From the NCBI RefSeq assembly GCF_014863355.1, contig NZ_JACZEP010000001.1, forward strand, positions 1,116,001-1,180,000: a stretch of DNA of 64,000 nt, read 5' to 3'. Below the pieces are notes generated by a model. It made no database searches, was not told where the DNA came from, and saw only the letters and a program-made list of their open reading frames with translations. Shown here one piece after another: positions 1-12,116 of the stretch (position 1 is the first letter of the stretch; the number at the start of each line of letters is the position of its first letter). Source of the DNA: Aminobacter carboxidus. Its GTDB lineage: Bacteria > Pseudomonadota > Alphaproteobacteria > Rhizobiales > Rhizobiaceae. The translations under genes were made by a program, and so were the position numbers.

Positions 1-1507
1 GCCAGCCGGACACCCACTCATAGACGAGCTTCGAACTCGCCGTGTTGTTGCAGACGACGATGAAGACGGGCGGTACCGAAATGCCGGCGCGCCGCCATTC
101 CTCGAATTCTTTCTCGTAATGGCTGTAGAGGGAGATAAGCGCCGTCTGGAGCTGCGCCGGAATCGACAGGGGGTCGAGCTCGCCGGACTTGGAGGCGCCC
201 TTCTTGGGCATCTGTTTTCCGATGTGATCCCAAAGGTTCCGATAGACGGGTGTCTCGGCATTGACCGCGTTGTCCGCCACCGGAACACGCGGCAGCTTGA
301 CGATGCCGCATTCGATGGCGTCGACGAGACTGAAATCCGAAACGACCCAGGGAAACAGCGTGCCTTCCTCGTAGCCGGAACCGCGCAGGAAGAAGGGCGT
401 GGCGGAAAGATCGTAGACCGCGCGCAGGCCAACCTTGCGCTTCAGCGCCTCGAGACCCGAAATCCAGAGACGGGCGGCCTCATTGTTCTTTTTCGCTTCT
501 TCCTTGTCCTCGCCCTTCGCCTCGGCTTCGTCGTCGGTGCCGGGCCGCTCGCGGTAGCAGTGGTGCGCCTCGTCGTTGATGACGACGATGTTCTTCAAGG
601 GAAGAAGCTCGCCGCAGGCGCGGGCCAGCATTTCGCCTTCGCTCTCCTGCTTCTCGATCGGCTGCCCCGTGCGGCCCTGCATGAGCCGTTCGCCGACGGG
701 ATTGAGGTCGTGCGCCTTGCGGCGCTGGAAGGCGTGGTAGTTGGTGATCACGATCTTGGCCTTGCCGAGATCATTCATCAGTTCGGCGGGGACCAGTTCA
801 CGAGTGCGGTAGTAGTTGTCGGTGTCGGATGGGTTGAGGACACGGAGCCGATCCTTGATCGTGATACCCGGCGCCACCAGCAGGAAGCCTCTGGAAAAGA
901 GCGACGAATTCGGCTGCCTGGCGGCATTAATGGACTGCCACGCGATCAGCATTGCCATGACCGTCGTCTTGCCAGCGCCCGTCGCCAGCTTCAACGCAAG
1001 CCGGAACAGATCCGGATTGGCGTCTCGGTTTGCCTCCTCGAGATGACGGAAGATATGCGCATATTGCTTGCGCCCGCGCGCTACCTCGGCCAGCCAGATC
1101 GCCGTCTCGACTGCCTCGATCTGGCAGAAAAAGGGTCGCTGATTGGAGAATTCGTGGTGTCGCCAATGCTGCAAAAGGCGCTGCGTGACGGGCGTAACGC
1201 CCCAGTCGTTGGGATTCGGCAGGGCGCGCCAGGATTCGATGTGTCCGCGGATTTCGTTGATGATCGGCGTCGGGTTATAGCCGCTTTCACCGCCCTCAGG
1301 AGCATCGAAGGCGAGGGACGCCTGGCTTCGGCCCGCGCCGGATTTCGACCGTCGTGCCTTGGGCACCGGCGTAATGTACTTCGACCGTCGCCGCCCTTCG
1401 ATCGGGGGATGCTCCAGTGGCTGGCCGTCATCACCGAGCGCATGATGCCGCGTCGGCGGCAGATAGGGCGAATTGAGGATAGGTTCCGCATAGAATGGCT
1501 TGGTCAT
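1..1507 (-). CDS. Type III restriction-like DEAD/DEAH helicase-nuclease, N-terminal part (cut by window edge)
   Basis: The first 502 codons are present and the gene runs off the left edge. The ATG at 1505-1507 follows a GGGGGG ribosome-binding site. Visible motifs are LATGAGKTT (Walker A, about residues 174-182), NDEAHHCYR (motif II, about residue 310) and DLSATPFF (motif III, about residue 370). This order is that of superfamily 2 translocases of type III restriction (Res) subunits, and the N-terminus resembles the solitary BPTD_3080-type restriction endonucleases as I remember them. The nuclease domain expected at the C-terminus is outside the window. No methyltransferase gene is visible. 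It probably cuts foreign DNA in the cytoplasm. It is divergent from the DUF4297/SMC unit, so it belongs to the defence island. Helicase call firm, restriction role inferred. Confidence 0.85.
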   Translation of the reverse strand, partial: MTKPFYAEPILNSPYLPPTRHHALGDDGQPLEHPPIEGRRRSKYITPVPKARRSKSGAGRSQASLAFDAPEGGESGYNPTPIINEIRGHIESWRALPNPNDWGVTPVTQRLLQHWRHHEFSNQRPFFCQIEAVETAIWLAEVARGRKQYAHIFRHLEEANRDANPDLFRLALKLATGAGKTTVMAMLIAWQSINAARQPNSSLFSRGFLLVAPGITIKDRLRVLNPSDTDNYYRTRELVPAELMNDLGKAKIVITNYHAFQRRKAHDLNPVGERLMQGRTGQPIEKQESEGEMLARACGELLPLKNIVVINDEAHHCYRERPGTDDEAEAKGEDKEEAKKNNEAARLWISGLEALKRKVGLRAVYDLSATPFFLRGSGYEEGTLFPWVVSDFSLVDAIECGIVKLPRVPVADNAVNAETPVYRNLWDHIGKQMPKKGASKSGELDPLSIPAQLQTALISLYSHYEKEFEEWRRAGISVPPVFIVVCNNTASSKLVYEWVSGW

Positions 1508-1740
1508 GGTCCCCCCGGAACGAATCCCGGACACCATGCACGGAAAGGAACCTATTGATCAACTTACGGAGTCCGTCATGCGGGATTGGAGGGAGGACGA
1601 ACATGATTTGATGTGGTTGCAAGTCTAGAGCCCCCAGCGCGGGCAGACGCGGCCAACACGCGTTTAGTGAATGGATGTATGTATCGGCTCCGGCACAACA
1701 TGCTTAGGATGCGGGGATATTGTCGATTCGGGCGCAGTAA
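1508..1740. promoter_or_regulatory. Divergent promoter region between restriction-like gene and nuclease/SMC unit
   Basis: This gap separates two divergently transcribed defence genes and must hold both promoters. It is less G+C-rich than the flanking genes. I could not place a confident -35/-10 pair or operator in it. Confidence 0.4.
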
Positions 1741-2829
1741 TTGGATATAAGGCAAACCCTCCTGAAGGAACCTCAGCGCGAGCAGGGTGGCAAGCTTGCG
1801 GTAGAACGATTTGAATACCAGGCAGCTTGGGGGCTGTCACGGATACTCCAGCTTTACAAGAGTGGCGCGGACTTCGGGGTCGCGTTCGAGTTCCACGACG
1901 ACGTCCTCGAACTCGACAGCATAAGCAATCCCACGAAGATCACATTCTTCCAAGTGAAGACGCAGAAATCCGGCACATGGACGCTTTCCAGCATTTCGGC
2001 TTCATCTGGTGCCAAACTGAAGAAGACCACGGTTAAGCGGGGCGATGCGCCGCCGGCGAAGAAGTTGTCCTTCGCGGCGAAAATGTATGACAACTACAAG
2101 CGATTTCCGAACCATACTGAGAGACTGGTCTTCGTCACCAATCAGATGTGCTCTGATCTTGCAGCCGGTCATGACGAGGCGAAGTTCGACACCGCCGCGG
2201 CGGCAAAGATCGAATCCTTCCGGAAACGCCTGAAGGAACAGGATCCAAACTTTCAGGACGAGCACTCGAAGCTGTTCCACTTCTGCTGCTCCACCATGAA
2301 CCTCGCCAGCTTCAGCGACACGATTATGGGCGCCGTCCAGAAGTTCGTGATCGAGCAGACCGGAATGACGGAGACCAGCACCTACGCATTCGCCCTCATG
2401 CTTCTCGAAGAATGCCGCCAGCGGGAGCGGATGGACGTCGACTTCAGCGGCTTTGCCCAGATGTCGGAATCCTTCGTAACACGAAAGCTGATCGACGATC
2501 GCCTCGAGGACTTCAAGAGGAAGCGGGCGGAGGCGGTCGAGTGGTCGGGAATCGCTCCGTACATTACGAACATCGTTCGCCGCCGAGACATTGGGGCGGG
2601 TTGGAAACTCTACGTCAACGACCGCCGCTCCCGCTACGGACCCGGACCACAGAGATTCCGCAAGGCCGTCAAGGATGTCGTTGCGAACCACATCACTGGA
2701 GCCCGCGATCTAATGTTGGAGGTGGACGCTGCTCTTCCGGAAGTCAGGCCGCTCGCAGACCTTTGGGACAAAAGCGTGAGCGACGATTACCTTCGCGCCG
2801 TCATCCTTTACGAGTTCCACGATGTCTAG
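1741..2829 (+). CDS. DUF4297 (Cap4-type) dsDNA nuclease effector of a two-gene defence unit
   Basis: This 362-aa protein starts at TTG; an in-frame stop at 1738 excludes anything earlier, and the conserved domain begins about 10 residues in. Residues 20-230 match the DUF4297/Cap4 pattern: FEYQAAWGL, then EFHDDVLELD (about 50-59) and FFQVKTQ (about 69-75). The acidic cluster plus QVK is a PD-(D/E)xK nuclease core. The last 130 residues are not recognised and could be the sensor or partner-binding part. It lies 47 bp upstream of an SMC-like ATPase. The same pairing occurs in Lamassu-Cap4 and in ABC-three-component systems, where the ATPase senses infection and the nuclease destroys DNA. The effector role is inferred; the domain call is fairly secure. 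Confidence 0.8.
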   Translation: MDIRQTLLKEPQREQGGKLAVERFEYQAAWGLSRILQLYKSGADFGVAFEFHDDVLELDSISNPTKITFFQVKTQKSGTWTLSSISASSGAKLKKTTVKRGDAPPAKKLSFAAKMYDNYKRFPNHTERLVFVTNQMCSDLAAGHDEAKFDTAAAAKIESFRKRLKEQDPNFQDEHSKLFHFCCSTMNLASFSDTIMGAVQKFVIEQTGMTETSTYAFALMLLEECRQRERMDVDFSGFAQMSESFVTRKLIDDRLEDFKRKRAEAVEWSGIAPYITNIVRRRDIGAGWKLYVNDRRSRYGPGPQRFRKAVKDVVANHITGARDLMLEVDAALPEVRPLADLWDKSVSDDYLRAVILYEFHDV

Positions 2830-2983
2830 CAGCGAACGCTTTCAGCAACTCGTCAGAAATCTCAGATTGAAGCACCATGAAAAACTTGCGCTTCGAGAAG
2901 TTAGAACTCCTGTCGACAACGGAGCGCAAGGGCAGGACGGTCAAGTTCCATCCCCGACTGACGGTGATCACCGGCGAGAATGA
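2822..2983 (+). CDS. Possible 53-aa ORF bridging nuclease and ATPase genes (low confidence)
   Basis: An ATG overlaps the stop codon of the nuclease gene (GATGTCTAG), an arrangement typical of translational coupling. The frame stays open for 53 codons and overlaps the first 107 bases of the ATPase gene. The first 28 residues (MSSSERFQQLVRNLRLKHHE and on) look like an amphipathic helix; the rest is low in structure and is probably just the shadow of the ATPase reading frame. It could be a relic of a middle-component gene, a translation-coupling leader, or chance. No function is assigned. Confidence 0.25.
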   Translation: MSSSERFQQLVRNLRLKHHEKLALREVRTPVDNGAQGQDGQVPSPTDGDHRRE

Positions 2984-4559
2984 CGTCGGCAAATCCTCGA
3001 TCATAAAGAGCATCTACTGGGCGTTCGGCGCTCCGGTCAGGATGCATCCGGAGTGGCTCAAAGCGAAGGTGAAGGCCCGCGTGTCCTTCACCATCGACGG
3101 TGATCGCTTCTCGATCGTCAGGGACGGCACAGCCTTCGGCGTTTTCGACGACAAGGGCGCTCTCCTGATCACGACAAGGAGCGTCACGTCCGAGTTGGGC
3201 CCGTTCCTCGCGAAATTGCTCGACTTTGGTCTAGTGCTGCCGAACAAGTCCGGCGTTACGGAGACGCCGCCGCCCGCCTACATGTTCATGCCGTTCTATA
3301 TCGACCAGGATAGCGGCTGGAGGCAATCGCTCGAATCCTTCGACAACCGCGGGCAGTACAAGAACCCGCGGAAAGCCGTGGTGGAGTTTCATTCCGGCAT
3401 CAGGCCGAACAGGTACTACGTGCTCCAGGCGAGGAAAGCCGCCGTCCAATTGGAGATTACCGAACTTGGCCGCGACCGGCAGGTGCTGGAGAAGGCGGTC
3501 GCCAAGCTGAACCTGCAGCCCGCCTTCACCGGAACGGAGTTCACCGAGCTCGAGCATCGGGAGTCCGTGGATCGCCTTCTCTTGGAGCTTCGCGACCTTC
3601 GGGCTGCACGGCTCAAAAGCGCCGCCGAGCTTGCCGACCTCGTAGACGGACGTGAACTCGTGAGTGAGCAGATGAGGATCGCCCGCCTCGCAATGGAGGA
3701 GCTGGGCAAGGATTATGCCTACGCGTCGAAGGCCGAGGCTGAGATATTCTGCCCGACCTGCGGGACGAGCCACCACAACGACTTCACGCACAAGTTCTCA
3801 ATCCTCGATGATCGCGAAGCGTGCGCGCAGTTCCTTCGCGACCAGGATGACCGCCTGGTCGATATCCGGAAAAGGGCGGAACAAGTGGAAGCGCGCCTTA
3901 GCGGTACGGACGCCCTGATCGAGAAGGTGTCGGGAACCCTTGTTGAAAAGGAAGGGGACCTCACGCTCAAAGAGGTCATCGAGAACGCCAGCGCAAACAT
4001 GGCGAGAGGGCTGTTCGATGCGCAGCTCGAGGACATCAAGGCGGAAGTCGACAAGAGGGCGGGGGAGATCGTCGAGATCGACGCCGAGGTGAAGACGCTG
4101 GACGACAAGAAACGCAGGAAGGAGATCGAGGCCTACTATGCCGAGCTCATGACCGGCTTCCTGCGGACCCTCAACGTTCAAAGGATCGATTTGGATAGCG
4201 CGATCAAGATCGTCCGTAAGGTCAACGACACGGGAAGCGACCAACCGCGGGCGGTCCTCGCCTACCACCTCGCGCTCATGAAGACCGTCTTCCGGTTCTC
4301 CTCCGCCTTAACGGCGCCGATGATCATCGACAGCCCCAACCAGCAGGATCAGGACGCGACCAACGTGGCGGCGATGATTGCCCTCATCATGAGCAGCCGT
4401 CCGGACAACGGCCAGACAATCCTCGGGACGGTTGGCCTTCACGATCAGAAGGTTGAAGACGGGGAAGTGATCGAGCTCGTTGACGAACTATCGGCCCTAT
4501 CGTCTGATCATTATCCTCAAATCCTTGATACCATGAATCCTTTACTCGGCATGCTGTAG
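2877..4559 (+). CDS. SMC/Rad50-like ABC ATPase with zinc-hook CxxC, partner of the DUF4297 nuclease
   Basis: The 560-aa protein starts at ATG 2877; a stop codon two codons upstream fixes the start. No strong ribosome-binding site is visible, so coupling to upstream translation is likely. Walker A is GENDVGKSS (33-41), a coiled-coil-like stretch runs from about 185 to 425 and is interrupted by CPTC (292-295), a Rad50-type hook motif, and GSDQPRAVLAYHLAL (about 453-467) precedes Walker B/D-loop PMIIDSPNQQDQD (481-493). This is a compact SMC-type ATPase about half the size of Rad50. With the nuclease upstream it forms a two-gene unit resembling LmuB of Lamassu or the ATPase of ABC-three-component systems. 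It would sense aberrant or phage DNA and license the nuclease; that role is inferred. Confidence 0.8.
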   Translation: MKNLRFEKLELLSTTERKGRTVKFHPRLTVITGENDVGKSSIIKSIYWAFGAPVRMHPEWLKAKVKARVSFTIDGDRFSIVRDGTAFGVFDDKGALLITTRSVTSELGPFLAKLLDFGLVLPNKSGVTETPPPAYMFMPFYIDQDSGWRQSLESFDNRGQYKNPRKAVVEFHSGIRPNRYYVLQARKAAVQLEITELGRDRQVLEKAVAKLNLQPAFTGTEFTELEHRESVDRLLLELRDLRAARLKSAAELADLVDGRELVSEQMRIARLAMEELGKDYAYASKAEAEIFCPTCGTSHHNDFTHKFSILDDREACAQFLRDQDDRLVDIRKRAEQVEARLSGTDALIEKVSGTLVEKEGDLTLKEVIENASANMARGLFDAQLEDIKAEVDKRAGEIVEIDAEVKTLDDKKRRKEIEAYYAELMTGFLRTLNVQRIDLDSAIKIVRKVNDTGSDQPRAVLAYHLALMKTVFRFSSALTAPMIIDSPNQQDQDATNVAAMIALIMSSRPDNGQTILGTVGLHDQKVEDGEVIELVDELSALSSDHYPQILDTMNPLLGML

Positions 4560-4729
4560 ACACCTCACCTAATCCATTGGATTGCTCTGCTTTCGGCGCG
4601 CGAAACGCCGGCTTTCAGCCGTATTGCACGTCCAACGGCCGACGGGAGCGGTCCGTTTCAGCAAGGGTCACCGCCGACGGACAGGGTGGCAACCCCTGCC
4701 AGACCAAACACCGACGAACTCCTCGGCGC

Positions 4730-5485
4730 CTACACCTCCACCACCAACGCCGGATCGAAGTTGCTGTTCTCGTCCTCGTATCCCCGCGGGTTGCAGACCA
4801 CCCGGGTTTCCCCAACCGTGTAGTCGCAGCTGTCGTGGGTGTGTCCGTGAACCCAGAGAGCGGGCCGTCCATCCTCGATCAGAGGGGTCAGGTCGGATGC
4901 GTACGCGCCGTTCAGGAGATCGCCTTTGAACCGCGGCGGAATGGAAAGCGCGTGCGGCAGGTGGTGTGTGACCACGACCGTTCTGGACGAATCCTTCAGG
5001 GCGGTGTCCAGGAAAGTCCGCGACTGCTGATGGATCCTGTACGAGGCCTCCGGCACAAACCTTTGCCAAGGATTCCGCTGCCGAGCGATCTGCTTGTAGT
5101 CGTTCATGCGGCCACGGGCGTGGTGCATCGCGATCTGGGGATGACCCTCGATGCGGTAATCGGTCCACAGGGTGGTGCCCAGGAAGCGGACTCCATCGAT
5201 GATGACGGACGTGTTTTCGAGGAAATGCACGTCCGGGAATGCTTCCGCTGCCCCGAAACCGTCTTCGATTCCTTCCCTTATGGCCCCTTTATAGAACTCG
5301 TGGTTCCCGGCGACGTAAACGCACGGCATTGAAGGGGCGATGTGTTTCGCCAACCAGTGGACACCGTTGGCCGGAGCGCGGCAGAGGTCTCCGGCCATCA
5401 TGCAGACCTCGGCGTTCGGTATCCGGAGAGGCTGCCGCAGGTCGGCGTACTCGAGGTGGAGGTCCGACAGGACCCAGACCCTCAT
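4730..5485 (-). CDS. Calcineurin-like metallophosphoesterase
   Basis: All five metal-binding blocks of the calcineurin-like phosphoesterase fold appear in order: SDLHLE near the N-terminus, AGDLC, GNHEFY, THHLP and GHTH near the C-terminus. The 251-aa protein has no signal peptide, so it acts in the cytoplasm. The ATG at 5485 gives a protein that begins right at the first beta strand (MRVWVLSDLH); a TTG six codons upstream is the alternative. The substrate cannot be told from sequence: these enzymes cleave nucleotides, nucleic acids or phosphoproteins. It lies 121 bp downstream of the Lon-like ATPase gene on the same strand and may share its transcript. Association with a defence island suggests a nucleic-acid or nucleotide substrate, but that is a guess. 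Confidence 0.8.
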   Translation of the reverse strand: MRVWVLSDLHLEYADLRQPLRIPNAEVCMMAGDLCRAPANGVHWLAKHIAPSMPCVYVAGNHEFYKGAIREGIEDGFGAAEAFPDVHFLENTSVIIDGVRFLGTTLWTDYRIEGHPQIAMHHARGRMNDYKQIARQRNPWQRFVPEASYRIHQQSRTFLDTALKDSSRTVVVTHHLPHALSIPPRFKGDLLNGAYASDLTPLIEDGRPALWVHGHTHDSCDYTVGETRVVCNPRGYEDENSNFDPALVVEV

Positions 5486-5606
5486 GGCGGGTCCGTCCTG
5501 CAATTGTTGACAAAACAGGCGGCGGTCTCTGGATGAGAAGCGAATCCCATAAGCGCCCTTCTACCCATTGCATGCCCTCCAGCGAATCCGCTCAACGGGT
5601 GCGACT

Positions 5607-7136
5607 TCACTGCCGACCTCGGAGGTCTTCACGCACTTCAACGAGCTTCTCGACCAGACGGTGAAGCTTCCGGATCGAACCGCCGGGCCAGACGGAGGCG
5701 AGAGCATCGGTCTCCACTTGATCGAGTGGAGTCGCCCACCGGGGATCGTGGCCGAGCTCGACATAAAGGTGTTCGAGGATGCGGGGCGCCAGGAACATGA
5801 GTTGGTCCGGCCCCGGCAGGGGAAACTGAAGGATTCGGCATCTGTCCAGCAACACGGCGGGGACGCTCCGGACCTCGTTGGCGGTCATCAGCCAGGATAC
5901 GTGCGACAGATTGCAACTGGCTTCCAGGTAGGGGTCGAACCAGCGGGTGGAGGTCTCCTTCTCCAGAAGTCCCACAAGGACGTCATGGACATTGCCGTTG
6001 TGACGGCTCGTCGCCACCTTCTCGAGTTCGTCGAGGATGATCGCCGGGCCTGCGCATTTATGGCGGCGGATTGCCATCACGGCCATGCTCGGCTCGCCGG
6101 TGGACCACCGTCTCGCAGTCCCTCCGATGGCGCTGTCGCTGATCCCGCCGCAGGGCACCATTTCATACGGCAGCCCGAGTTCTTCCATCAGTCGCCAAGC
6201 AAATCTGGATTTCCCGCCTCCGGGCGGTCCAAGAAGGATCGTCGGCCGCAGCCAGGCGTGACGCTTGCCAGTAACCTTCCTGAGAATCGTGTCGATTGCG
6301 GACACCGCATATGGGAATTCCGCGACCAGCCTCGTCCGCACCAAGGCCAGGTCCGGTGCGGCCGGCAGAGGCAGGGGCTTCCCAAAGAATTCCCTGAACT
6401 CCTTCTCGACCTTCCTTCCGTCCGGGGTGGTCTCGTTTCCAGCGGACCTGAAGACAACCACGGACCCGGACGACGATTGAGCTTTCTCCGGCTCCCCGGT
6501 TCCGGCTTTTTCAAGCTCGTCGACAGTCAGTTCGAATGCTTCGGGCCGCGGGGAAGCCTGTCGCTTCAGGATTGCAGTCTGGAACTGGTATTCAAAGCTG
6601 TTCTTCTCGCGGAGCTGCCCTGACCTGTGCCACGTCGAGAGACCATATCCCTGCGACCGGATGGAACTGGAGAAAGCGCTCCAAGCCAGCGACCGCCACA
6701 GCAGTTCCAGGTCATCGGATCTGTGAAGGTCGTTCAACGCCAGCGTGGCGATGTCCCCGGCAATCCTGGCAGCCGCATCCGGATGGCCCCATACTGCTAG
6801 GTAGAACTGACAGCGAACGCCGCCTGACTCGAACGAGGCGTGCGACCTGCTTTCCAACGCGCCGAATGCTGTCATGAGGTCTTGAACGGTATGTTCGTTC
6901 TGATCAACGGTGAGCCTGTCGAGGGCCGCGATGAGGCCAGCAAGCCCGAGATCACACCGTGTCTTGAGTGCCCCCGAAAGCCGAATTGCGTACTCCCGAA
7001 TGTCCTCGCTGACACTATCCCTGAAGAAGCTCATTCCCCGCAAGAGTTCATCCTCGGTCGGCAGGTGGAGCCCCGCCACCGCCGCCTTTTCGCGACGCTT
7101 GAAATGTCGAAGGTGCGCTGGGTCCTTCACCGACAT
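5607..7136 (-). CDS. Lon-type AAA+ ATPase without protease domain
   Basis: The 509-aa protein has an unrecognised N-terminal half (1-250) and a C-terminal AAA+ module. Walker A is GPPGGGKS (303-310), followed by CGGISDSAIGGT, the pattern seen after Walker A in Lon, then Walker B IILDELEK (about 366-373), sensor TANEV, and LLDRCRIL before the helical lid. The Lon Ser/Lys protease domain is absent; the protein ends soon after the lid. It should therefore unfold or remodel a partner instead of degrading it. It starts 8 bp after the DUF6634-like gene, so the two are surely co-transcribed, and the metallophosphoesterase follows 121 bp later. I infer an island module of unknown biochemical role. 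AAA+ call is strong. Confidence 0.85.
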   Translation of the reverse strand: MSVKDPAHLRHFKRREKAAVAGLHLPTEDELLRGMSFFRDSVSEDIREYAIRLSGALKTRCDLGLAGLIAALDRLTVDQNEHTVQDLMTAFGALESRSHASFESGGVRCQFYLAVWGHPDAAARIAGDIATLALNDLHRSDDLELLWRSLAWSAFSSSIRSQGYGLSTWHRSGQLREKNSFEYQFQTAILKRQASPRPEAFELTVDELEKAGTGEPEKAQSSSGSVVVFRSAGNETTPDGRKVEKEFREFFGKPLPLPAAPDLALVRTRLVAEFPYAVSAIDTILRKVTGKRHAWLRPTILLGPPGGGKSRFAWRLMEELGLPYEMVPCGGISDSAIGGTARRWSTGEPSMAVMAIRRHKCAGPAIILDELEKVATSRHNGNVHDVLVGLLEKETSTRWFDPYLEASCNLSHVSWLMTANEVRSVPAVLLDRCRILQFPLPGPDQLMFLAPRILEHLYVELGHDPRWATPLDQVETDALASVWPGGSIRKLHRLVEKLVEVREDLRGRQ

Positions 7137-7144
7137 CTAAGAAC

Positions 7145-7486
7145 CTATGCATCCCGGCCGAACTGGCTGGCTGGCCGACCAAGCCGATACCAACGCGAAA
7201 GCGTTCGCGCCCATTCGAAGTCGACGGAGATTATCCAAAGATCCGAGGTGCCGATGGCCCGGTTCTCTCCGACGAGCTTCGGATGTCCCGTCGACAGTCC
7301 GGCCAGGCAGGGGGCTGGTCGTTTCGTCAGCACCCAGCGGTCCAGGATCGGAACCTCGTTTCCGGCCATGGCTTCCGGCCGCACGCCACGCTGAATGCGC
7401 TCCATATCGGCAGCGAGCGACAGCATTCGCTCCATCCCTCTCACGAATTCGGGACCTTGATCGTCACCTGGGTTGAAGAGCAGCAT
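7145..7486 (-). CDS. Small conserved protein, DUF6634-like
   Basis: The ATG at 7486 is preceded by ACGGAGAT at good spacing, so the 113-aa form beginning MLLFNPGDDQGPEF is preferred over longer in-frame starts. The protein has an N-terminal helical segment (FVRGMERMLSLAADMERIQRG) and a conserved-looking end (SDLWIISVDFEWARTLSRWYRLGRP). From memory this pattern matches the DUF6634 family found in rhizobial genomes, often beside an AAA ATPase; I cannot verify it here. No catalytic motif, membrane segment or signal peptide is seen. It is the first gene of the minus-strand unit with the Lon-like ATPase, 8 bp apart, and is divergent from an XRE regulator. It may be the adaptor or substrate of that ATPase. 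Confidence 0.6.
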   Translation of the reverse strand: MLLFNPGDDQGPEFVRGMERMLSLAADMERIQRGVRPEAMAGNEVPILDRWVLTKRPAPCLAGLSTGHPKLVGENRAIGTSDLWIISVDFEWARTLSRWYRLGRPASQFGRDA

Positions 7487-7658
7487 CGGGATCTCCGTCT
7501 GTCGGCCAAGGATCCGATGCAGTCGGATCCTGTGATTCGAAGGAATCAGCCAGGCAGACATACGGCGTCGACGGGTCGGCGTCCACACGCCACCGTCGGC
7601 GTCCGGACGTCGCTCTACGATGCTGGTGTTCTCAAGTTCAACGGGTTAGAAATCCGGC
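7487..7658. promoter_or_regulatory. Divergent promoter region between DUF6634-like/AAA+ unit and XRE regulator
   Basis: This 172-bp gap must drive both the minus-strand unit and the plus-strand regulator. A small XRE protein encoded at its edge is a natural candidate to bind here. I could not identify a convincing inverted repeat by eye. Confidence 0.4.
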
Positions 7659-7928
7659 ATGCAGGCATCCTATGACTTCCTCCGCGCCGCCCGATCTCTT
7701 CTGGATATCAGCGCGAAAGACCTCGCCGAAAAGGCAGGGGTGAGCACCCGCTCGATCGTCCGGATCGAGGCCGGTGAACCCGTCGGACTCGAGACCAGCA
7801 TGCGCGTGCAGGTCGCGCTCGAAGCGTGGGGCATCGAATTTCTGGCGGAGACGAAATCGAGCGGGCCGGCGATGCGAGTTCGCAAAGGGGTGGTCAAGAA
7901 GGTCGGGTTTCAATTGCAGGCCCGTTGA
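7659..7928 (+). CDS. Small XRE-family helix-turn-helix regulator
   Basis: The 89-aa protein has a Cro/CI-type helix-turn-helix over residues 8-60: LRAARSLLDISAKDLAEKAG, VSTRSIVRIEAGEPVG, then a hydrophobic segment VQVALEAWGIEFL typical of rhizobial XRE proteins that carry only the DNA-binding domain. The basic tail (VRKGVVKKVGFQLQAR) may add DNA affinity. No clear ribosome-binding site precedes the ATG, so start or leaderless translation is uncertain. It is divergent from the DUF6634-like/AAA+/metallophosphoesterase unit and is the likely repressor of that unit and of itself; this is inferred from position. Confidence 0.8.
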   Translation: MQASYDFLRAARSLLDISAKDLAEKAGVSTRSIVRIEAGEPVGLETSMRVQVALEAWGIEFLAETKSSGPAMRVRKGVVKKVGFQLQAR

Positions 7929-8234
7929 TCGGCGAAAACCGCGGGTTGGGTTCCCCGAGCCGCGTCTACGCCTCCGGCAGGAACTGTTCGGTTACAGAGC
8001 GGCCGCACGCTTCGAAATGATCGTCAATGCCATCTAGCCTGGGAGAGGCTTCCCGGGGGCTTCGACAGCCTCACACCTCGCAGGCAGAGGCTTTGGCGGT
8101 GCCTGATAATCTGCGAGGTATCGTGTTGGAGAAAATTATGGCCTTTCGTGCGGCTCTCAAAGCCGCCTGCGGCGGGGCAAGGGAGCCTAGCACCCGCGTT
8201 TTCGCCTTCTACACCAGTGTACTGCCAGGCAGCC
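7929..8234. other. Non-coding stretch at the right end of the accessory island
   Basis: No convincing gene is seen on either strand between the XRE regulator and the terminator pair. The stretch has many short repeats of GC-rich words but no integrase, direct repeat or tRNA end that would mark an insertion site. Confidence 0.4.
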
Positions 8235-8299: not shown

Positions 8300-8335
8300 A
8301 AAAAGAAAGTATGCCAACTATGCGGTCGGCATACT
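8300..8335 (-). terminator. Intrinsic terminator of nrdJ
   Basis: On the minus strand AGTATGCC pairs with GGCATACT (8308-8315 and 8328-8335) around a 12-nt loop and is followed by TTCTTTTTT. The upstream arm overlaps the nrdJ stop codon, so transcription ends right at the gene end. Confidence 0.8.
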
Positions 8336-11300
8336 ATGAGCAGCCCGATGTACTTCCGCAGGTGTCGCACTTCTCGCAGGTGCCGTTGCGGACCATGGTG
8401 AAGTTCTGGCACTCCGAGCAGGAATTGCCGGTGTAGCCTTGCAGCATCGACTTGGCGCGGCGGTCGGCGGCGACTTTCTTGGCCTCGGTCGCTTCCTGGG
8501 CGGCAGCGTCGGTGAACAGCGAGGTCGTCACCGTCTCGGAAGTCTCCTCGATGGTGATTTCTTCGACCAGTTCCTTGGCACGCTCCTCGTAGTCACGCTT
8601 GTAGGCGGTGGATTCCTCGACCGAGATCGCGGCTTTTGGTGCCAGCGACAGCACGTTGGAGCCGGAGAAGGCGGTCACGGGCGTGGCGCGCGCCGGGCTT
8701 GGAGTGGCAGCCGAGCCCTTGGGATCGTTGCCGGCGACGCCGGAGACGACCTTGAGCGGGGAGGCGCCGCGGGTCAGGCCCTTGGAGAAGGGCAGGGCCT
8801 TGCCTTCGGTGATGCCCTTGCCGAGGGCCGTCTTGTCGAAGTCCGACTGGTCGACATGGGCGAGGTCGTGGCGGTTGAGATAGCTGACGGCGAGCTCGCG
8901 GAAGACATAGTCGAGGATCGAAGTGGCGTTCTTGATGGCATCGTTGCCGATGACCATGCCGGCCGGCTCGAACTTGGTGAAGGTGAAGGCCTCGACATAT
9001 TCGTCGAGCGGCACGCCATACTGCAGGCCGAGCGAGATCGAGATGGCGAAATTGTTCATCATCGCGCGGAAAGCAGCGCCTTCCTTGTGCATGTCGATGA
9101 AGATCTCGCCGAGGCGACCGTCGTCGAACTCGCCGGTGCGCAGGTAGACCTTGTGGCCGCCGACGACGGCCTTCTGGGTGTAGCCCTTGCGGCGGTTCGG
9201 CAGCTTTTCGCGTTCGCGGTAGAGGCGCTCGATGACGCGCTCGACGATCTTTTCGGTGACCTGTACCGCCTTGGCTGCGGCAGGGGCCGCGAGCAGCGCC
9301 TCGACGGCCTCATCTTCATCCTCGTCCTCATCTGCGATGAGCGAGGCATTGAGTGGCTGCGACAGCTTGGAGCCGTCGCGATAGAGCGCGTTGGCCTTGA
9401 GCGCCAGCTTCCACGAGAGCATGTAGGCGCTCTTGCAGTCCTCGACCGTCGCCTCGTTGGGCATGTTGATGGTCTTGGAGATGGCGCCCGAGATGAAGGG
9501 CTGGGCCGCCGCCATCATGCGGATATGGCTTTCGACCGAAAGATAGCGCTTGCCGATCTTGCCGCACGGATTGGCGCAGTCGAAGACGGGCAGGTGCTCG
9601 TCCTTGAGGAAGGGCGCGCCCTCGAGCGTCATCGCACCGCAGACATGGATGTTGGCGGCTTCGATGTCCTTCCTGGAGAAGCCGATCGCCGGCAGGATCT
9701 CGAACGAGAAATCGTTGAGCTGCGCGTCGGTGAAGCCGAAGGTCTCCTTCACCCAGTCGGCGCCAAGCGTCCACTGGTTGAACACGAACTTGATGTCGAA
9801 GGCGCTCTTGAGCGCGGCATTCAACGCCTCGATCTTCTCGTCGGTGAAGCCCTTGGCCTTCAGCGCGCCGGGGTTGATGCCGGGCGCCTGGTTGAGGTTG
9901 CCATGGCCGACGGCATAGGCCTCGATCTCGGCGATCTGGGCCTCGGTGTAGCCGAGCGTGCGCAGCGCCTCCGGAACGGCGCGGTTGATGATCTTGAAGT
10001 AGCCGCCGCCGGCGAGCTTCTTGAACTTGACCAGCGCGAAGTCGGGCTCGATGCCAGTGGTGTCGCAATCCATGACCAGGCCGATCGTGCCGGTCGGCGC
10101 GATCACGGTTGCCTGGGCGTTGCGGTAGCCATGCTCCTCGCCGAGTTCGATGGCGCGGTCCCAGGCAGCACGGGCGTGGCTGACCAGGTCCTGCTGCTTG
10201 AGGTCGGAAGCGACCAGCGGCACGGGATGGACCGACAGCTTTTCGTAGCCGTCCTTGTCGCCATAGGCGGCGCGGCGGTGATTGCGCATGACGCGCAGCA
10301 TGTTTGCGGCGTTGCGGTCATAGTCCGGGAAGGCGCCGAGCTCGGAGGCCATCTCGGCCGAGGTGGCATAGGCGACGCCGGTCATGATCGCCGTCAGCGC
10401 GCCGCCAATGGCACGGCCTTCGTCGGAGTCATAAGGAATGCCTGAGGTCATCAGCAGGCCGCCAATGTTGGCGTAGCCGAGGCCAAGCGTGCGGTACTCG
10501 TAGGACAGCTTGGCGATTTCCTTGGACGGGAACTGCGCCATCATGACCGAGATTTCGAGCACGACGGTCCAAAGGCGCACGGTGTGCTCGTAGGCCGCGA
10601 TGTCGATTGTCCCGTCGGTGTTGCGATAGGGCAAAAGGTTGATCGACGCCAGGTTGCAGGCCGTGTCGTCGAGGAACATGTATTCCGAACACGGGTTCGA
10701 CGCACGGATGGCGCCCGCCGAGGCGCAGGTGTGCCAATCGTTCATCGTGGTGTTGAAGTGCAGGCCGGGATCAGCCGACGCCCAGGCGGCGTAGCCGATC
10801 TTTTCCCACAGGTCGCGGGCCTTGAGCGTCTTCATGACCTTGCCGTCCTTGCGGGCGGTCAGCTGCCAATCGCTGTCCTGTTCGACGGCGCGCAGGAAAT
10901 CATCCTTGAGCGAAACCGAATTGTTGGAGTTCTGGCCCGAAACGGTGAGATAGGCCTCCGAATCCCAGTCGGTGTCGTAGGTCTTGAAATCGATCGAGGT
11001 GTAGCCCTGCTTGGCGAACTGGATGACGCGGTAGATGTAGTTCTCCGGCACCGCGTTCTTCTTGGCGGCCTTGATCTCGCGCTTGAGCGCGGTGTTGATC
11101 GCCGGATCGAAGCAATCGTCGTCCTGGCCTTCGCAGTTGACGCAGGCGGCCATGATCTTGGCGAGGTGCTGCTTGACGATCTTGGAGCCGGTGACGAGAG
11201 CGGCGACCTTCTGCTCTTCCTTCACCTTCCAGTCGATATAGGCCTCGATGTCGGGGTGGTCGGCGTCGACGACGACCATCTTGGCGGCACGGCGGGTGGT

Positions 11301-12116
11301 GCCGCCCGACTTGATGGCGCCTGCTGCGCGGTCGCCGATCTTGAGGAAGCTCATCAAGCCCGATGAACGGCCGCCGCCCGAAAGCTTTTCGCCTTCGCCG
11401 CGCAGATGCGAGAAGTTCGAGCCGGTGCCCGAACCATACTTGAACAGGCGCGCTTCACGTACCCACAGGTCCATGATGCCGCCCTCGTTGACGAGGTCGT
11501 CGGCGACCGACTGGATGAAGCAGGCATGCGGCTGCGGGTGTTCGTAGGACGACTTCGACTTGGTCAGCTTGCCGGTGAAGGGGTCGACGTAGAAATGGCC
11601 CTGGCCGGGACCGTCGATGCCATAGGCCCAGTGCAGGCCGGTGTTGAACCATTGCGGCGAGTTGGGTGCGACGCGCTGGGTGGCGAGCATGTAGGACAAT
11701 TCGTCCTTGAACGCACGGGCGTCGTCCTCTGATTTGAAGTAGCCGCCCTTCCAGCCCCAGTAGGTCCAGGTGCCGGCGAGACGGTCGAAGACCTGACGGG
11801 CGTCGATTTCTGAGCCGTAGCGTTCGTTTTCGGGCAGCTTGGCGAGTTCGGCCTCGTCGGGCACCGAGCGCCACAGGAACGAGGGGACGTCGTTTTCCTC
11901 GACCTTCTTCAGCCGGGCGGGCACGCCGGCCTTGCGGAAATACTTCTGCGCCAGGATGTCGGCGGCGACCTGGGAGAACTGCGCCGGCACATCAATGTTG
12001 TCGAGCCGGAAGACCACCGAGCCGTCCGGATTCTTGATCTCGGAAAGGGCCTTGCGGAACTCGATCTCCGCGTAGGCCGATTGTCCATCCTTGGTGAAAC
12101 GCCGCTCGATGCGCAT
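8334..12116 (-). CDS. nrdJ: Vitamin B12-dependent (class II) ribonucleoside-diphosphate reductase
   Basis: This 1260-aa enzyme reduces ribonucleotides to deoxyribonucleotides in the cytoplasm using adenosylcobalamin to make the thiyl radical. Motifs seen include the substrate-site segment [12 protein letters not shown], the catalytic loop [19 protein letters not shown] after the barrel core, and a C-terminal zinc-ribbon/shuttle tail with [12 protein letters not shown] and a final GCS. Length and tail fit the long single-chain NrdJ of alphaproteobacteria. The ATG at 12116 begins [12 protein letters not shown], the usual N-terminus. An NrdR box lies about 264 bp upstream and an intrinsic terminator overlaps the stop. 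It stands alone as a transcription unit and marks the return to core genome right of the defence island. Confidence 0.97.

Follow-up and report, generated by a model that had tools for sequence, protein, structure and literature searches.

The window analysed here, 64,000 nucleotides (nt) of the Aminobacter carboxidus contig NZ_JACZEP010000001.1 (positions 1,116,001 to 1,180,000, forward strand), carries two adjacent genes of a Lamassu defence system, lmuA for a Cap4-type nuclease and lmuB for an SMC/Rad50-like ATPase, and a third open reading frame (ORF), named lmuX here, that spans the junction between them (Table 1). Comparison with related loci has shown, at the level of sequence, that this third ORF is under selection as a protein. 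It begins 8 nt ahead of the end of lmuA and shares 107 nt with lmuB, which it reads in frame +2. The preliminary description of the locus, made from the window sequence alone, held that no full third gene is visible; no ordinary gene lies in the junction, and a conventional third gene was rejected as a candidate for that reason, but the overlapping ORF had been missed. The suggestion in the same description that a missing function might be supplied by a tiny ORF proved apt, as a conserved overlapping ORF was found by the motif scan, the open-frame tests and the tail test described below.

Table 1. Features of the Lamassu locus, in positions of the window
Feature	Start	End	Strand	Description
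Third ORF (lmuX)	2822	2983	+	53 aa; evidence from motif scan, open-frame tests, tail conservation and ORF statistics
lmuA-lmuB junction	2830	2876	+	47 bp; lies entirely within the third ORF
Core motif LVRNLR of the small protein	2849	2866	+	within predicted helix (residues 3-15); codons vary synonymously
lmuA	1741	2829	+	362 aa, TTG start; Cap4-type (DUF4297) nuclease effector with N-terminal nuclease domain and C-terminal helical domain
Putative nuclease active site of LmuA, D54 and Q71-x-K73	1900	1959	+	columns invariant in 18 LmuA rows
lmuB	2877	4559	+	560 aa, ATG start; SMC/Rad50-like ATPase with zinc hook
Walker A of lmuB, GENDVGKSS	2973	2999	+	Asn codon AAT creates the stop of the small ORF (2981-2983)
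Zinc-hook motif of lmuB, CPTC	3750	3761	+	read from sequence
Walker B-like segment of lmuB, PMIIDSPNQQ	4317	4346	+	acidic pair D-S replaces D-E

The open reading frame across the lmuA-lmuB junction

Fifty-three loci were gathered from genome contigs, genomes, plasmids, phages and IMG/VR, and 51 were analysed after removal of L091, in which the N-terminus of LmuB was not located, and L142, a near copy of L144. Fetched but unused were the truncated or partial loci L005, L071 and L108, the weak matches L111-L114, and near copies or re-fetches such as L065, L094-L097, L104, L105 and L116-L118. At the junctions of the relatives, a short peptide is shared that is out of frame with both genes: SERFQQLVRNLR in the window, SEHFKILVRNLR in Phyllobacterium, TDKYQLLIRNLR in R. 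leguminosarum, QDNYKLLIRNLR in Aliarcobacter and KGNFKQLVHTLR in Hymenobacter. The motif may be written F/Y-x-x-L-[VI]-R-[NS]-L-R.

The motif was scanned for with a leave-one-out matrix of 12 residues, from which near copies of the tested locus were also excluded, in three frames of the 100 nt upstream of lmuB; the null consisted of 78,540 positions in the bodies of LmuB, again in three frames. The best score exceeded every null position at 39 of the 51 junctions, 38 times in frame +2 of lmuB and once (L009) in frame 0, and exceeded the 99.99% null level at 41 junctions, 40 of them in frame +2, so that the survey of homologous loci for a conserved third gene proposed in the preliminary description has found the motif of one at 41 of 51 junctions. 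These 41 include L009, which is above the threshold, and not L074, whose motif was picked by pattern. Although the training motifs were chosen in frame +2, no locus contributed to the matrix with which it was tested; the leave-one-out scan is the sole test of frame, because the anchors were picked in frame +2 (that of Hymenobacter from the scan itself). The LVRNLR anchor lies 28 nt from the lmuB start in 26 loci, 31 nt in nine, 22 nt in three, and 25, 37 and 49 nt in one each, all differing by whole codons. Relative to lmuA, the frame varies: of 41 loci, 27 have +1 and 14 have +2.

The core amino acids are kept despite codon variation: over 35 aligned rows, six codons each are used at R12, L10 and L14, those of R12 being AGA (12), AGG (7), CGA (6), CGG (4), CGT (2) and CGC (2). 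At L10, V/I and L14, the information sits at codon positions one and two of the +2 frame, with 2.00, 2.00 and 1.32 bits at the second positions and 0.04, 0.14 and 0.15 bits at the third; N13 and R15 retain third-position information (1.01 and 0.86 bits).

The statistics of the ORF itself include L074 and omit L106, which alone among the motif loci has a stop within the motif (around 2455-2500) and whose LmuB is also split in two frames, as a dying copy would be. The 40 unbroken small ORFs are 42-74 aa long (median 53), all have a start codon (37 ATG, 3 GTG), which precedes the end of lmuA in 37 of them, and they overlap lmuB by 50-170 nt (median 107). The product of the window is 89% identical to that of Mesorhizobium huakuii. 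An AlphaFold2 model of the small protein built from 21 sequences (predicted local distance difference test score, pLDDT, 65.7) consists of a single helix, residues 3-15, and an unstructured tail.

If the ORF is a gene, its frame should remain open over lmuB more often than lmuB alone would dictate. With the expectation taken from lmuB recoded with synonymous codons, 40 of 41 motif loci keep the +2 frame open over the first 60 nt of lmuB or more (11.1 expected), and 33 keep it open over 90 nt or more (5.6 expected). This set retains L106, counts L074, and omits L009, with its broken LmuB and its motif in frame 0. Because the loci are related, the test was rerun on 18 representatives with LmuB less than 40% identical, omitting L009 and L106: the frame is open for at least 60 nt in 17 of 18 versus 5.3 expected (P 3.1e-12) and for at least 90 nt in 11 versus 2.8. 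Among the controls, the frame is open in none of the nine motif-less loci (0.4 expected, a comparison of low power), in 265 of 1221 body windows of the same lmuB genes, in 30 of 41 ordinary genes of the window (27.2 expected) and in 53 of 181 neighbouring genes of the fetched loci (57.4 expected). There is an excess of open frames at motif loci, and ordinary genes show none such.

The overlapping tail is also conserved, as far as aligned sequences can tell, beyond what lmuB forces. When 37 sequences (Hymenobacter, L009 and L106 excluded) were compared with synonymous shuffles over 605 pairs with LmuB less than 35% identical, the +2 frame had z 15.4 over lmuB codons 2-21, 6.3 over codons 22-36, 2.5 over codons 37-56 and -0.1 over codons 57-76, while the remaining six windows in the body of lmuB gave z between -0.3 and 2.5. 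Pooled synonymous identity is 0.614 over lmuB codons 2-35 and 0.480 in the body. The Walker A Asn codon, which often provides the stop of the small ORF, is AAT in 16 of 17 motif loci that have Asn-Asp there, and in L009 too; the lmuB gene of the window uses AAT for only 2 of its 16 asparagines.

Thirty-four of the 40 unbroken small products were compared with the profile databases. None matched PADLOC at E up to 5, and against Pfam, NCBIfam and PHROGs there were weak hits alone, each from a single member, the best at 0.0017; none of the 12 Pfam families so hit is a middle component of the ABC-three-component (ABC-3C) systems. As no similarity was found among these 34 members, the small protein was rejected as a homologue of LmuC or of a middle component. 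The profile of the small protein does match N-terminal residues 9-44 of archaeal ribosomal protein eL18 (PDB 9sra chain BP, E 6.2e-5), in a stretch that includes the basic LIRYLRKK (LIRYLRKKSNEEK); only a short basic segment is involved, common descent has no basis, and the resemblance, a lead on shape only, may be that of shared basic-helix character and no more. Over window positions 1-8000, Rfam gave nothing at the gathering score. The ORF is missing from the gene tables, which are stated to be incomplete, of all seven annotated plasmid records (L072, L073, L074, L075, L078, L079 and L081); the motif of L074 is doubtful, and Hymenobacter was not counted as its ORF crosses the start of the record, where no genes are tabulated. 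The ORF is likewise unmentioned in the literature searched, a scope that lay outside the primary Lamassu papers, so an earlier description is possible.

LmuA, LmuB and their neighbourhood

The preliminary description, in which a Cap4/DUF4297 nuclease gene precedes the gene of a 560-aa SMC-like ATPase by 47 bp, is borne out by the coordinates, Pfam and PADLOC. The Pfam family Cap4_nuclease matches LmuA residues 16-227 (E 6.5e-28), the PADLOC LmuA profile covers residues 1-359 of 362 (E 6.9e-49), and M. huakuii LmuA, 85% identical, is annotated at the same length (1089 nt). Residues D54, Q71 and K73 of LmuA are presumed to be catalytic, as in Cap4/PD-(D/E)XK nucleases. In an AlphaFold2 model of LmuA (pLDDT 86.9), built from 18 sequences of the window and the loci, the N-terminal domain is mixed and the C-terminal part consists of helices only. 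By E-value, its best match in the PDB is 9ux7_C (E 3.5e-6), the LmuA chain of an LmuAB-DNA complex; Hachiman, Cap4 and the LmuA tetramer 9hr5 rank next. The C-terminal 130 residues, which had been left unassigned, are helical in this model, and the C-terminal region is spanned by all 18 aligned LmuA rows.

LmuB is covered by its PADLOC profile over residues 1-557 of 560 (E 6.8e-188), and the nearest solved ATPase by profile is the LmuB of PDB 9ux7 (E 1.4e-46). The Walker A, CPTC hook, signature-like segment (GSDQPR) and Walker B that had been read from the translation were all located, the last being Walker B-like, with a D-S pair in which the usual catalytic Glu is missing. A Glu-to-Gln change in Walker B is given as general in PMC10586767; the pair in the window is D-S instead. 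G38, K39, S40, R458, D485, P487 and Q489 are invariant in an alignment of 18 LmuB rows, two of which (L076 and L077) lack the hook. Both LmuA and LmuB appear intact in the window.

The locus is almost certainly a Lamassu of type I, and the defence unit that had been proposed is confirmed in this sense: both proteins are near full-length matches to the PADLOC profiles, the genes are adjacent, LmuB is hooked, and the fold of LmuA matches that in 9ux7. The original type I consists of LmuA and LmuB; the two-gene form has been described (PMC8565338, PMC12409362), some Lamassu systems are without LmuC (PMC10586767), and LmuC occurs in about 10.2% of those detected (PMC8565338). The two-gene make-up, which was the principal claim of the preliminary description, is therefore known biology, and both proteins are placed by profile in a subtype already described; the unexpected part is the conserved overlapping ORF, by which the locus differs from type I as published on the basis of annotated genes. 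The related idea of a reduced or fused variant is refuted by the near full-length matches, the C-terminal region present in every LmuA row, and the known two-gene type I. Lamassu type II, DdmABC and the ABC-3C systems also combine a Cap4 nuclease and an SMC-like ATPase, with a small component between them (PMC10586767, PMC12409362), whereas the window has no separate gene for LmuC/DdmB (DUF6521) and its small ORF overlaps lmuB. The Cap4 effectors of CBASS share the nuclease domain, and solved Cap4 proteins are among the fold matches of LmuA, but LmuA had no match to the SAVED domain (Cap4_nuclease was the only Pfam family above the cut-off) and its partner is an SMC-like ATPase; no CD-NTase was named among the flanking ORFs scanned, which were some of those present and were given no dedicated test.

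Homologues of LmuB are sporadic: with the genome of the window counted each time, matches occur in 1 of 101 close relatives, in 21 of 397 at the level of the order (E<=1e-3, eight of the matches being long and strong) and in 2 of 385 at the level of the class (E<=1e-15). The nearest relative found is on a plasmid of M. huakuii, with LmuB 89% identical over residues 1-358 and 79% elsewhere. All 34 pattern-marked, motif-bearing LmuB ORFs longer than 450 aa carry the CPxC hook, as do five of the ten other LmuB rows of that length, one being the ORF-bearing Hymenobacter. In an unrooted LmuB tree of 45 rows, the state of the small ORF changes three times (bootstrap range 2-3), although well-supported branches force only one of these changes. 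The motif-less rows comprise a hookless clade (L070, L076, L077, L083 and L144), a second group (L082, L084 and L135), and the weakly placed L086.

Some loci are interrupted. On the conjugative plasmid of M. huakuii (L072:6074-9255), about 3.2 kb with transposase genes splits lmuB but leaves lmuA and the small ORF whole; in L063 (7602-8873), about 1.3 kb that looks by eye like an insertion sequence element splits lmuA, and lmuB is split over two frames.

The Lamassu genes of the window adjoin other genes of defence. On the minus strand, an island (L002:5478-17537) spans the stretch between a point about 10.5 kb ahead of the window and window position 1537 and encodes a type III methyltransferase (PADLOC MTase_III, 1200 bits), a 1025-aa ResIII-type restriction subunit, a 622-aa protein matching the candidate defence models PDC-M55C and HEC-05, and a UvrD-type helicase (GajB match, 6.2e-26). 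Directly past lmuB on the opposite strand is a calcineurin-like phosphoesterase (4730-5503; Pfam Metallophos; PADLOC candidate PDC-S10, 6.4e-14), which may share a cassette with the next genes on the minus strand, an AAA ATPase (509 aa) adjoining a DUF6634 protein (147 aa; 5607-7588). Beyond these, a class II (B12-dependent) ribonucleotide reductase of 1260 aa (8334-12116, minus strand) is perhaps a chromosomal gene that bounds the island.

Weighing the role of the small ORF

The preferred reading is that the window holds a type I Lamassu anti-phage or anti-plasmid operon of three genes, the small product being a third subunit, for which a probability of about 0.6 seems reasonable. The coding status of the small ORF is the well-supported part of this reading: it is very probably a genuine protein-coding gene maintained by selection. 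To our knowledge, a protein-coding overlap of about 107 nt conserved across deeply diverged relatives is unusual in bacteria. That the product acts as a subunit of the Lamassu complex is put at even odds.

Several observations count against the third subunit or weaken its support. In the GC-rich window taken alone, the open +2 frame is not significant (P 0.43); as it is unremarkable by itself, the case rests on the family. The +1 control frame also shows an excess in the tail test, with z 4.3 over codons 2-21, 4.8 over codons 16-22 and up to 4.0 in one body window, and the z values are therefore inflated by nucleotide effects, part of the signal being unspecific. Raised synonymous identity is given little weight because motif-less loci show a smaller rise as well (0.644 over codons 2-35 versus 0.573), and AAT stands at the Walker A Asn in five of six motif-less loci, which favour this codon throughout. 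The motif of L074 is weak (score 1.4, under the null threshold). Nine of the 51 loci have no motif (L070, L076, L077, L082, L083, L084, L086, L135 and L144), four of them with the hook, and Lamassu can thus exist without the small ORF. The solved LmuAB-DNA complex carries a two-protein title, and its LmuB (9ux7) groups weakly, on a long branch (83/81), beside the motif-less L082, L084 and L135. The fold similarity of LmuA to 9ux7_C is modest (template modelling score 0.46, root-mean-square deviation 8.3), and outside its helix the small protein is modelled with low confidence.

The main competing explanation is that the small ORF is translated but acts in cis: ribosomes arriving from lmuA and reading through the lmuB start would set the ratio of LmuA to LmuB, with a peptide that matters little or serves as a nascent regulator alone. 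This would suit an ORF that overlaps the lmuB start in all 40 unbroken cases and starts before the end of lmuA in 37 of them, with a frame that varies relative to lmuA (+1 in 27, +2 in 14) and is constant relative to lmuB at 38 of the 39 top-scoring junctions. Translation of the small ORF is probably coupled to termination of lmuA and proceeds across the lmuB start. However, the core amino acids are kept through synonymous change and the tail is conserved well beyond the lmuB start, and a coupling device needs neither, which makes a cis function by itself rather unlikely; roles in cis and as a subunit could both hold.

It is much less probable that the locus is a plain two-gene type I Lamassu in which the junction motif acts as a signal in RNA or DNA or arises as a by-product of the lmuB start region. 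Lamassu has indeed been described with two genes, and the +2 frame of the window would be open so far by chance about four times in ten, but most core codons carry little information at the third position of the +2 frame (N13 and R15 keep some), the excess of open frames belongs to motif loci and not to ordinary genes, and no Rfam family reached its gathering score in the first 8000 positions of the window. Slightly less credible again is a programmed +1 frameshift that would fuse the small ORF to LmuB and so add an N-terminal helix. The fixed frame +2 relative to lmuB agrees with such a shift, as does L009, where the motif is in frame with lmuB, but the LmuB ORF of L009 is just 208 aa, broken by frame changes, with an A-run at the junction, so this locus is probably an assembly error or a decayed copy. 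Moreover, the frame stays open and conserved for 60-107 nt beyond the lmuB start; a frameshift at that point would require no such thing. An unsystematic look by eye at the junction sequences revealed no shared slippery site. Hardly credible is a frameshifted C-terminal extension of LmuA: the small ORF does start at or near the lmuA stop, but its frame relative to lmuA is +1 in 27 loci and +2 in 14, and no single shift could be conserved. Frameshift extensions of LmuA and LmuB were both rejected, given this variable frame and the open, conserved tail over lmuB.

A possible third component of Lamassu

In related Lamassu systems, the SMC-like part recognises the ends or secondary structures of foreign DNA, and LmuA is set free, assembles into tetramers and becomes an active nuclease (PMC12409362, PMC12904381). 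If the system of A. carboxidus works likewise, LmuB would sense foreign DNA ends or structures, and LmuA would then be freed, form tetramers and cut DNA, with the cell being killed or arrested. The 53-aa product, with its basic helix and flexible tail, might serve as a third, small subunit, bound to LmuA, LmuB or both, and help to keep the nuclease in an inactive complex or at the right stoichiometry; it would thereby fill the job of LmuC in type II, despite the lack of any similarity found between the two.

Type I Lamassu is currently classed as a two-protein system. The chances are about equal for and against the broader proposition that most hooked "two-gene" Lamassu of the kinds sampled are three-component systems, in which a helical microprotein of about 50 aa, encoded by the junction and some 35 codons of lmuB and easily overlooked by gene finders, docks the nuclease to the ATPase heads, and that some lineages have lost the microprotein, one of them along with the hook. 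If a third part is encoded in this way, constructs in which lmuA and lmuB are recoded, re-cloned or separately expressed would silently lose the small protein. The typing of Lamassu by the presence of LmuC would then be misleading, and types I and II would be united as three-component systems.

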